30,495 nucleotides of DNA from a virus, in IMG/VR virus record IMGVR_UViG_3300009155_000174, positions 1-30,495 of that record; one strand, written 5' to 3'. The notes beneath the pieces are model-generated. The model made no database searches, was not told where the DNA came from, and was given only the letters and a program-made list of their open reading frames with translations. The first letter of the stretch is position 1; the number at the start of each line of letters is the position of its first letter. Below are positions 12,662 through 30,495 of this stretch, one piece after another. A program made the translations under genes and the position numbers.

Positions 12662-12791
12662 CTACTTGAACCTTGTCTGTAATTTCCATACCACATGGTC
12701 CACAAAAACATAGGTCTGCAGGGTCTTCAAAAGGAATCGCAATGCTTTGGTTTTCACAACCATCTGTGTGACAAGTTAAATTGATAATCAC
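12651..12791 (-). CDS. Small zinc-ribbon-like protein, 46 aa
   Basis: A 46-aa protein with start GTG 12791, which overlaps the TAG stop of the collagen-like gene by one base, and an AGGAA ribosome site upstream. It has CHTDGC early and CFCGPCG later, likely a four-Cys zinc ribbon, and ends EITDKVQVDGL. An ATG-initiated longer form would overlap the fibre gene by 79 nt and is less likely. Similar short zinc-ribbon proteins follow structural genes in actinophages as I recall. Function unknown. Confidence 0.6.
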   Translation of the reverse strand: MIINLTCHTDGCENQSIAIPFEDPADLCFCGPCGMEITDKVQVDGL

Positions 12792-14368
12792 TATTGAGCC
12801 GTTCCTGCCGAGTAAGCGGATGTAGTCATTTGTATTGCTTGCCAACCAGCACTTAATGCACTTGTCCATGTCTGCGTAGCCGCACTGGGATTGTAAACAT
12901 AGTAAGTAAATCCAGTAGTGCTTGAAGCAAGTCCTCTTGGAACAAGGTTTCCAGTGCCAGAAGGAGCGCCCTGCAATGTTGTTATAACAACTGGGGCAAC
13001 ACTAAATCTACTAGCAGGAAAAGTGACAGAAGCATTTGTTTGTCCACTTGCAACAACAGAACCTGTTGCAAAACTAATAAGACCAGCAGAAATTGCATAT
13101 GGAAGTGGTTTACCACTAGAAGAGTTAGTTGCACTAGTTGCTGTACTTGCATTTCCAATTACACTACCAGTTAGTGTTCCACTAAAACCATTTTGTGCGT
13201 AGATATTTCCAATAGAACTTACGTTTCCCGAACCATCTACTTTGAACACAGGTGCAACAGCATCTTGACCATCTGGAGTATTCCTAAGTTCAAATAAATT
13301 ACCAGAGTGAGTTCCAGCAGCAACGGTTGTATCAATAATAATTGCTGATGAGTTAGCACTTGTTGTAGCAGTAACACCACCAGTTAATGCTGGACTTGCA
13401 GAAAATACCAGTGACCCAGTACCAGTTTCATTGGAGATAACTCCAGCAAGTTCTGCAGAAGTTGTAGCAGCAAACTGTGATAATTTACCTGCGGTAGTAG
13501 CAATACCAGTTACTGCACCAGTAGTACCATTAACTGAGTTAACACCAGTAACAGCGCCAGTAGCACCATTGAAAGATGCAACATAGGCTAACGGTGTTGA
13601 GCCTGTCGCTCCTGTTGCACCTGTTGCACCTGTAGCTCCATTAGTTCCGTTAGTACCATCAGTACCCGTAGCACCCGTTGAACCTGTTGGACCAGTGCTA
13701 CCTGTAGCACCAGTTGGACCTGTAGGTCCCGTACTTCCAGTAGAACCATTAGTGCCATTGGTACCTGCAGTACCAGTCGCTCCAGTAGGTCCAGTAGGAC
13801 CTGTCGCACCAGTTGCGCCAGTGGCTCCCGTAGCACCATTCGTACCATTCGTACCATTAGTTCCGTTAGTACCTGTAGGTCCAGTAGGACCTGTTGCACC
13901 CGTACTTCCAGTAGAACCAGTAGAACCTGTTGGTCCTGTAGGACCAGTTGCGCCTGTTGCACCATTAGTTCCATTTGTACCAGAGCTACCTGTTGGTCCA
14001 GTAGATCCAGTATTGCCTGTCGATCCAGTAGGACCAGTAGGACCCGTTACTGTACTTGCTGCTCCTGTTGCACCAGTTGGACCAGTTGGACCAGTTGGAC
14101 CAGCGACTGTACTATTAGCACCAGTAGAACCAGTGCTACCAGTTGCACCCGTAGAGCCAGTTGGACCTGTAGGTCCAGGAACCGTAGAGTTTGCGCCCGT
14201 AGGTCCTGTAGGACCCGTAACAGAAGGACCAGTTGATCCAGTTACACCTTGGGTTCCTTGAGGACCAATGACACCAAGTTCAATGGTAACGGTTTCTGAG
14301 TAGTTAACGTCCATAGTGGTACGTTCAACAGGAATTTCAACAACGGAAGTAATTTCAGTTAATGCCAT
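12791..14368 (-). CDS. Collagen-like Gly-X-Thr fibre protein
   Basis: A 525-aa virion fibre. Residues 1-34 (ending [12 protein letters not shown]) form an attachment segment. Residues ~35-257 are collagen-like Gly-X-Y repeats dominated by GPT, GST, GAT and TNG, with Thr in the Y position. Residues ~258-420 hold beta-rich linker motifs with two [19 protein letters not shown] units. The C-terminal ~105 residues ([19 protein letters not shown]...) look like a beta-sandwich, possibly an H-type-lectin-like receptor-binding tip. Thr at Y could be O-glycosylated, and a glycosyltransferase is encoded just downstream. It starts in a TAATG overlap. The repeat makes the DNA highly repetitive. Confidence 0.85.
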
Positions 14369-29434: not shown

Positions 29435-29528
29435 TGTGCCTCCATGCTTTTACTCCCAAGGGAAAGCCTGGTTAGTAGTAGTCCTAGAATAAAACCTTGG
29501 TAGTGAAAAAACCACTTTTATACGGTGA

Positions 29529-29623
29529 GCAAGCGAAGCTTGCGAACCGTTACGGCCCGTTCCGCTTGCGCTACACGAACCGTAACAACCGTGAAGGTTC
29601 GGGGCTTCTAGGGGCGAAGCCCC
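29529..29623. repeat. Cluster of inverted and direct repeats (AACCGT motif)
   Basis: CGAACCGT occurs at 29543-29550 and 29576-29583, AACCGT again at 29587-29592, and the inverse GGTTCG at 29596-29601. Inverted pairs GCAAGC/GCTTGC, GTTACGG/CCGTAAC and GGGGCTTC/GAAGCCCC give three stems. This GC-rich block lies in an otherwise AT-rich intergenic stretch, so it is likely a protein-binding or structural control site near the late operon start. Confidence 0.5.
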
Positions 29624-29645
29624 TCACTAATACTAAGGGGGGGAA

Positions 29646-29762
29646 ATGTATGCTTTACCACGCTATTTTGAAAAAAACTTTTGTAACGATTTGGTAACGG
29701 GGATAAAACCCTTTATTTACAACGATTTTATAGCAGCTACTTTAGAAAAATTATTTCACTAG
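29646..29762 (+). CDS. Possible tiny protein, 38 aa
   Basis: A rightward frame of 38 codons (MYALPRYFEKNFCNDLVTGI... ending LEKLFH). Its amino-acid mix is protein-like, and a G-rich run (G7) lies just before the ATG as a possible ribosome site. But it is very short, has no visible promoter, no partner gene and no recognised family, so it may be chance. Confidence 0.25.
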   Translation: MYALPRYFEKNFCNDLVTGIKPFIYNDFIAATLEKLFH

Positions 29763-29880
29763 ATACTATACATCATGCTTCGCGCGTATTAAAAACCCGT
29801 GGGTCGTTGGCGTTGTGTGGCCTGATCTGGCAGACACCCCCCCTACCTTTTGGCTAGATCCCCCCCGTGTTATTTGCTGG

Positions 29881-29911
29881 CCGTGCCGTGCCGTGTTGTG
29901 GCCTTGCCTTG
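29881..29911 (+). repeat. Tandem pentanucleotide repeats (CCGTG x3, CCTTG x2)
   Basis: CCGTG at 29881, 29886 and 29891, a degenerate TTGTG, then CCTTG twice from 29902. Not coding in any plausible frame. It may be an iteron-like binding site or simple slippage product. Confidence 0.5.
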
Positions 29912-30063
29912 CCCTAGTTGTGGCTAAGTGTGCGGTGTGGGTTGTTAATGACACGGACACTACATACAGCTACCAACACGGCGAACACCTAGGGAAAAGC
30001 TGGCAGGAATTGGCAGGCCGTAACGGTGTGACACACGCCACAAAAAAAAGTTTTCAAATGTCC

Positions 30064-30092
30064 TTGACACCAGCTAGGCCTTGCCTTATGGT
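30064..30092 (+). promoter_or_regulatory. Plus-strand sigma-A-like promoter
   Basis: TTGACA (30064-30069), a 17-nt spacer and TATGGT (30087-30092) give a perfect -35 and a TAnnnT -10. Transcription would begin near 30099, about 40 nt before the 52-aa gene. It is the best promoter match in the right end and would drive the rightward early genes and the ribozyme. Confidence 0.7.
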
Positions 30093-30137: not shown

Positions 30138-30296
30138 ATGAGAAAAGATCTATGGTACTTTAGTAAATGCCTAAGCTGTAACAGCGTGAATGAGGCACTA
30201 TGGACAGACACGGACAACGGCTACGAAAGCGCGACACCGTGCCGTTATTGCCACCTAGTGGGCGAGCTGGTGCGGGTATGGGTGAAACACGTATGA
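30138..30296 (+). CDS. Small zinc-ribbon protein, 52 aa
   Basis: A 52-aa protein with CLSC at residues ~11-14 and CRYC at ~35-38, so a four-Cys zinc ribbon is likely (MRKDLWYFSKCLSCNSVNEA...). I take ATG 30138, with AGGGA 7 nt upstream; an upstream in-frame ATG at 30081 lies in the promoter. Zinc ribbons of this size may bind nucleic acid or regulate transcription. It is the first rightward gene and overlaps the next one by ATGA. Function not known. Confidence 0.65.
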   Translation: MRKDLWYFSKCLSCNSVNEALWTDTDNGYESATPCRYCHLVGELVRVWVKHV

Positions 30297-30412
30297 CTAA
30301 ATGGAATTGGACACCCAAGGCCTACCGCCTACGCGATAACCTGATCGCCCTAGCGTGTTGGTTAATGCTGGCGGGCGTGATCGCGCTATTCTTAATTAAG
30401 GCCACTAACTAA
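30293..30412 (+). CDS. Tiny membrane protein, 39 aa
   Basis: A 39-aa protein, MTKWNWTPKAYRLRDNL followed by one hydrophobic helix (IALACWLMLAGVIALFLI) and KATN. It starts inside the stop of the zinc-ribbon gene (ATGA), so it is translationally coupled. A single-pass membrane peptide; the role may be host-membrane modulation or superinfection exclusion, but nothing in the sequence shows that. The hammerhead ribozyme begins 2 nt after its stop codon. Confidence 0.6.
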   Translation: MTKWNWTPKAYRLRDNLIALACWLMLAGVIALFLIKATN

Positions 30413-30413
30413 A

Positions 30414-30463
30414 GATCGAAACCCCGCAAGGGGTCACACCGTAGGGCGGTGTCTGATGAGATC
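30414..30463 (+). ncRNA. Type II hammerhead self-cleaving ribozyme
   Basis: All core parts are present in the order of a hammerhead open at helix II. GATC (30414-30417) pairs with GATC (30460-30463) as helix II, with the G10.1-C11.1 pair. GAA (30418-30420) is G12-A13-A14. A15.1 (30421) pairs with U16.1 (30434) to close helix III, CCCC/GGGG with a GCAA tetraloop. C17 is 30435, so cleavage falls between 30435 and 30436. Helix I is ACACCG (30436-30441) with CGGTGT (30447-30452), loop TAGGG. CTGATGA (30453-30459) is the exact conserved core. It begins just after the stop of the 39-aa gene and precedes the next gene by about 25 nt. Helix II is only 4 bp. Confidence 0.88.
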
Positions 30464-30488
30464 AGGAACAAGATAGGAAACTAAGACA

Positions 30489-30495
30489 ATGGAAA
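30489..30495 (+). CDS. Start of the next rightward gene (only the first codons)
   Basis: ATG at 30489 with AGGAAA upstream (10-nt spacing), followed by GAA, runs off the window. The product cannot be told. Its mRNA would get a new 5' end if the ribozyme upstream cuts. Confidence 0.4.

Follow-up and report, generated by a model that had tools for sequence, protein, structure and literature searches.

A complete type II hammerhead ribozyme lies at positions 30414–30463 of the 30,495-nt viral DNA stretch analyzed here, an IMG/VR fragment (hereafter, the window). Judging from sequence comparisons, the element is likely to be catalytically competent and to act in cis as a processing site in the polycistronic early mRNA of the phage. 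The kind is already known: Perreault et al. 2011 (PMC3088659) describe phage type II hammerheads, suggest mRNA processing of phage transcripts as their role and report that tandem bacterial hammerhead sets cleave in vitro, an Agrobacterium set also in E. coli. What is new here is comparative evidence on function. A 2017 review (PMC6155905) still regarded the role of prokaryotic hammerheads as open, and a 2023 paper (PMC10085705) called the reason for hammerhead gene associations unknown. With open-access PMC as the literature scope, the searched text of PMC3088659 mentions neither stop codons nor RNase III. The replacement of the ribozyme by a long hairpin in close relatives suggests that phage hammerheads may serve to cut messages into gene-sized mRNAs with protected ends. 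This exchange, a stop-codon rule and an extra hairpin at type III elements point to one testable answer, mRNA end formation in phage operons.

A type II hammerhead between two early genes

The element is located in an early operon with the following parts.

30064–30092, + strand: sigma-70-like promoter of the early operon, TTGACA-17-TATGGT, 10/12 matches
30138–30296, + strand: 52-aa open reading frame (ORF), first gene of the operon, two CxxC motifs, zinc-ribbon-like
30293–30412, + strand: 39-aa membrane-type ORF (MTKWNWTP...), ATGA overlap with the preceding gene, stop codon TAA at 30410–30412
30414–30463, + strand: type II hammerhead ribozyme, 50 bases, helix II open, stems I and III loop-closed
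30414–30417, + strand: stem II, 3′ strand GAUC, pairs with 30460–30463; preceded by A30413, invariant in the subclass
30418–30420, + strand: core G12-A13-A14 (GAA)
30421–30434, + strand: hairpin III, A15.1-U16.1 closing pair, CCCC/GGGG, GCAA tetraloop
30435, + strand: C17; cut predicted at 30435/30436 from the established hammerhead mechanism
30436–30452, + strand: hairpin I, 6 bp, loop UAGGG with the invariant U30442
30453–30459, + strand: core CUGAUGA (C3–A9)
30453–30465, + strand: alternative hairpin CUGAU-GAG-AUCAG, mutually exclusive with stem II and core
30460–30463, + strand: stem II, 5′ strand GAUC, followed by A30464
30475–30478 and 30489–30491, + strand: Shine–Dalgarno AGGA and start ATG of the next gene, which runs off the contig end (30495)

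Read 5′ to 3′, the ribozyme RNA is GAUC GAA A-CCCC-GCAA-GGGG-U C ACACCG-UAGGG-CGGUGU CUGAUGA GAUC. It contains all strictly conserved hammerhead core positions (CUGANGA ... GAAA ... U-H17 with three helices), and their order, with stem II open-ended and stems I and III loop-closed, is that of type II. The original prediction had named this core and helix order, a U-C cleavage site and an intergenic position on the operon strand; each of these holds, the predicted site being C30435^A30436 by core position. Only A30413 separates the 5′ edge of the ribozyme from the TAA of the 39-aa gene, and the 3′ edge lies 25 nt upstream of the ATG at 30489.

Several elements of this locus recur in relatives. 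TTGACA...TTATGGT is also found in L205, as is a homolog of the 52-aa ORF (387–554), for which a Pfam search returned no match; the 39-aa ORF, named WNWTP here after its motif, has homologs in L205, L206, L207, L208, L008 and L009, and the next gene is complete in L205 (747) and L208 (2543). The large terminase and portal genes lie on the strand opposite to the early operon. A WhiB protein encoded in the early operon of a near-identical relative indicates an actinobacterial host.

Detection was assessed in several ways. A descriptor covering the type I, II and III permutations matched the window once and, applied to both strands, gave 0 matches in 600 dinucleotide shuffles of it. Covariance model R2, comprising 38 hammerheads from other phages with the window and all TerL-linked relatives left out, scored 63.0 bits (E = 2.3e-16), with the runner-up place in the window at 12.1 bits (filters off). 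A scan of the window at Rfam gathering thresholds returned no match, and the Rfam type II model RF02276 (Hammerhead_II) reached 22.2 bits (E = 0.0096), only with 116 bases supplied, against a gathering score of 37; the silence of the gathering scan is thus due to the structure of the subclass and not to absence of the element.

Conservation was studied in relatives linked by TerL. Three near-complete genomes of 39–41 kb (G001, G002 and G003; TerL 98–99% identical) each contain exactly one match to model R1, at the equivalent site, on contigs that break between the ribozyme and TerL; model R1 found no second ribozyme in the early operons of the closest relatives. A fourth relative (L116/L208) carries a 50-mer identical to that of the window between diverged flanking genes. 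In L205, stem III (CGGC/GCCG versus CCCC/GGGG in the window) and stem I (ACCCC/GGGGU versus ACACC/GGUGU) have both changed with pairing kept. Alignment A2, with 11 TerL-linked copies and TerL identity down to ~71%, has both-side changes in 10 of 15 pairs and all cells paired, as compared to 26–44% of cells in slid controls of A1 and A2; rows were admitted by a stem-demanding descriptor, which inflates the percentage paired, and the double changes are the informative part. In alignment A1 (52 rows), the hammerhead core is invariant and 12 of 15 pairs have both-side changes. The original prediction would have fallen with loss of pairing in homologous phages; instead, pairing is retained, with compensatory changes in A1, A2 and L205.

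A type II subclass without pseudoknot

To place the element among other phage hammerheads, validated type II examples were drawn from a pattern scan of viral contigs that returned at least 120 stretches and left the loop-I U and the stem-II-flanking A positions free. Among the matches listed, these hammerheads are of two kinds. Class B resembles RF02276: its stem II has 3 bp, its loop I is longer, and loop I forms a pseudoknot with the 3′ tail. Class A, to which the window element belongs, comprises at least 69 distinct members in which stem II has 4 bp, stem I has 6 bp and the pseudoknot is absent. Among the matches listed, its loop I is of the UNANG type with an invariant U (65/65), an A directly precedes stem II in 69/69 and follows it in 88%, and pairs between loop I and tail mostly number 0–3, versus 4–7 in class B. 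For the window, comparison by eye of loop UAGGG with the tail AGGAACAAGA revealed no match of the RF02276 pseudoknot type.

Relative to bacterial and phage type II hammerheads as presented in PMC3088659 and RF02276, the window element shares the core, the circular permutation, the C17 site, the position between phage genes and the proposed processing role, but differs from RF02276 by lacking the loop I/3′-tail pseudoknot and by its 4-bp stem II, UNANG loop I and invariant A. From their invariance, the loop-I U and the stem-II-side A likely form a contact in place of the pseudoknot. The principle is likely the same as in the classical type I and III hammerheads whose loops I and II make non-canonical contacts (for example, Schistosoma and sTRSV; PMC6155905), whereas the order in the window is type II and the contact would involve stem II at its open end, beside the stop codon. 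Class A is probably not wholly undescribed, given the remark of Perreault et al. (PMC3088659) that many hammerheads lack a pseudoknot.

As this subclass makes clear, many phage ribozymes, that of the window among them, escape routine Rfam annotation. Among 11 loci scanned, Rfam gathering matches were confined to L090, L091, L111 and L142, while all seven class A loci (L116, L020, L046, L049, L072, L119 and L141) were without one. A narrow subclass pattern, used in a scan of named genomes, matched three MAG contigs.

Two further observations concern type II diversity. Tandem arrays of 4 to 8 type II hammerheads on one strand between small genes, the most extreme among the loci examined, occur in L086, L090, L091, L111, L142, L159 and L197. 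A natural hammerhead variant at L015:1824–1876 (− strand) combines the core CUGACGA, changed at position 7, with A17 as the cleavage nucleotide and scores 45.7 bits with model R1.

Stop codons, gene slots and long hairpins

Placement relative to genes was analyzed with our own ORF and gene calls and with a stop-codon test that is independent of the gene caller. Among the matches listed, intergenic class A hammerheads are flanked on both sides by genes of the ribozyme strand in 60/65 cases, and their median distances to the stop codon and to the next start are 0 and 24 nt, respectively. In 89% of class A and 78% of class B elements, an ORF stop falls between −12 and +6 nt relative to the 5′ edge, as compared to 7.4% of random places in the same loci; most commonly, the first base of stem II is the last base of the stop codon. 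Taken together, phage type I and II elements adjoin an upstream stop codon in 65–81%, versus 7% in controls. This abutment could reflect genome compactness and not function.

The permutations differ in how they achieve this arrangement. A stop codon lies ≤12 nt from the edge in 65% of type I but 7% of type III elements. In type III, where hairpin III is not closed, a hairpin of at least 6 bp ends 0–4 nt upstream of the ribozyme in 21/40 (3.8 expected), with the stop codon upstream of this extra hairpin, mostly by 5–8 nt; types I and II have no excess of such hairpins (20 versus 16.2 expected and 18 versus 15.6 expected, respectively). Given the stop abutment of types I and II and the hairpin added in type III, the stop codon and the cut tend to be separated by a closed hairpin in all three permutations. 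Refolding of the type III stem III 5′ strand as a terminal hairpin was not enriched (6 seen, 8.6 expected). The idea that phages are restricted to types I and II, which give a 3′ hairpin, was rejected, as an unbiased hairpin-II pattern gave I:III = 75:30; a stem-III-biased pattern (53 stretches, 8 validated) had made type III look rare.

The extra hairpin directly before type III elements, for example in L409, L426, L451 and L433, often reads GGGAGUGUC-UUCAAA-GACACUCCC, with the stop a few bases upstream. In ~26/142 type I elements by histogram count (for example, L275, L268 and L269), the upstream stop lies 8–10 nt inside the motif, as would be expected if the UGA of the core CUGAUGA served as stop codon.

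Orthologous gene slots were compared by tblastn. The WNWTP membrane gene is followed by a hammerhead in the window, L205, L206, L207 and L208. In L008 (WNWTP protein 81% identical), a 21-bp hairpin takes the slot of the ribozyme, and in L009 (74% identical), a 24-bp irregular hairpin with the stop codon inside it. In a second, unrelated membrane gene family, L059 and L077 carry a hammerhead at this point, L061, L056, L058 and L060 a 21-bp hairpin, L078 a 16-bp hairpin and L075 a similar hairpin. Gap lengths are alike for hammerhead- and hairpin-bearing slots, and no T-run follows the slot hairpins. An irregular hairpin of about two turns at a gene end, as expected of an RNase III site, is absent from this slot in the window, where the ribozyme stands, and present in the slots of L008 and L009. 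We infer RNase III as the agent, and the slot hairpins of the sister phages are probably its sites.

Long hairpins also populate other gaps of the same operons: by histogram count, stems of at least 20 bp occur in 50/236 hammerhead-free gaps versus 6.7% in shuffles. Long irregular examples (L205:1046–1140, L208:2882–2970, L205:2180–2238 and L205:2489–2547) enclose the upstream stop codon (CTAG...CTAG), two L205 copies being 83% alike, and Rfam assigned the long gap hairpins of L205 and L208 to no family. Genes around the swapped elements, including downstream genes, are reshuffled (also in L208 versus L015), so an element may travel with a gene. The exchange of hammerhead and long hairpin at one slot suggests that both serve a common purpose, to divide the early transcript into separate gene blocks and to seal the ends.

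Proposed processing of the early transcript and rival readings

Hammerhead cleavage leaves a 2′,3′-cyclic phosphate on the upstream piece and a 5′-OH on the downstream piece, and hairpin-sealed RNA ends slow 3′ exonucleases and 5′-end-dependent RNases. In the proposed mechanism, the early transcript would be cut between C30435 and A30436. The upstream mRNA, with the 52-aa and 39-aa genes, would end 23 nt past the stop codon with a 2′,3′-cyclic phosphate, hairpin III (5 bp, GNRA loop) forming its 3′-terminal hairpin, while the downstream mRNA would begin with a 5′-OH right at hairpin I, followed by its own Shine–Dalgarno sequence. The sealed ends could give the two halves separate lifetimes. 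In sister phages, the long hairpin that embeds the stop codon would do the same job at the same place.

Intergenic mRNA processing, as raised in the original prediction, is supported comparatively by the hammerhead–hairpin exchange, the abutment to the stop codon and conservation with compensatory changes; cleavage in the cell and protection of the ends are what we infer from these sequence-level observations. Phage T7 has RNase III processing sites, R1–R5, between its early genes, and it is these that the long slot hairpins resemble most. By analogy, the window element would, like these, be an intergenic gene-end element that cuts an early polycistron and leaves a 3′ hairpin; unlike the T7 sites, its RNA would cut itself, without need for an RNase. 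Another parallel is the HHphage variant of haloviruses HF1/HF2, which, according to PMC3088659, precedes the start of an early gene by 13 nt, likewise in a virus that is lytic, but is a different structural variant from another host domain.

More tentatively, and with roughly balanced confidence, the reading may extend to tailed-phage hammerheads in general. All three permutations might be interchangeable, stop-codon-linked 3′-end formers for polycistronic mRNA that keep the stop codon and the cut apart by a closed hairpin (hairpin III for types I and II, the added one for type III) and are swapped freely with RNase III-type hairpins. The pseudoknot-free, Rfam-missed type II subclass would be a main carrier, part of it with an OFF or refolding hairpin built from the core.

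Such a hairpin brings in the idea of a regulated switch, in which ribosomes or a phage factor would set the balance between the active fold and an OFF hairpin at 30453–30465 and thereby time cleavage. In isolation, the minimum free energy fold of 30414–30463 (−18.6 kcal/mol; z = −1.9) is the hammerhead. In longer context, a nearest-neighbor model favors the 5-bp hairpin CUGAU-GAG-AUCAG over stem II, with probabilities of 0.89–0.97 versus 0.01–0.09 computed without tertiary energy, that is, ignoring loop–loop and core tertiary contacts. This preference, like the shortness of a 4-bp stem II that lacks a pseudoknot, also speaks against the processing reading itself. Among 79 class A hammerheads, the G needed for this hairpin is present in 22/25 with a GRUC stem II versus 7/54 with other stems (Fisher p ~1e-10, computed without tree correction), and the stop codon is placed such that a terminating ribosome would cover stem II. 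Yet stem II is other than GRUC in 54/79 members, which makes an OFF hairpin not general, and the hairpin would also form after cleavage and so may only prevent religation; its role may be that of a clamp after the cut or of a true OFF state. A conserved ligand-binding domain, as in riboswitches, is absent: the open stem II has the stop codon 1 nt away on one side and the start codon 25 nt away on the other, which leaves no room for an aptamer. The word ‘switch’ in the original prediction, in the sense of regulated cleavage, is unsupported, the competing hairpin being the one hint for it, and we regard this reading as unlikely.

Still less probable is that the hammerhead, active or inactive, is a mobile or neutral intergenic motif filling a compact genome, with no processing role. 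Hammerheads do occur in many unrelated phages and positions with varying neighboring genes, but compensatory changes, the fixed stop-codon placement and hairpins of the same length substituting at the same slot argue against this reading. A GC-rich hairpin III after a stop codon might also be a transcription terminator or plain 3′ stabilizing hairpin that merely resembles a hammerhead; this is very improbable, as all core bases are present and invariant across the 52-row alignment, the longest T run after the hairpin is 1 and a terminator scan lists none here. Paired hammerheads make RNA circles elsewhere (PMC7761336), as in retrozymes and viroid-like RNAs, and some phage loci have tandem copies; release of a circular or unit-length RNA is nonetheless the most improbable reading for an element with one copy in the window and one R1 match per 39–41-kb relative, and the account in PMC3088659 reports a search by Perreault et al. 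for circular and spliced products that found none.

Elsewhere in the window, a region of ~630 bases (29436–30062) between the divergent terminase and the early operon contains GCCGTGCC-type short repeats; near-identical phages have their contig ends between this region and the early operon. A 525-aa protein encoded at 12791–14368 (− strand) contains a long Gly-Pro-Thr-Gly collagen-like stretch and is probably a tail fiber.
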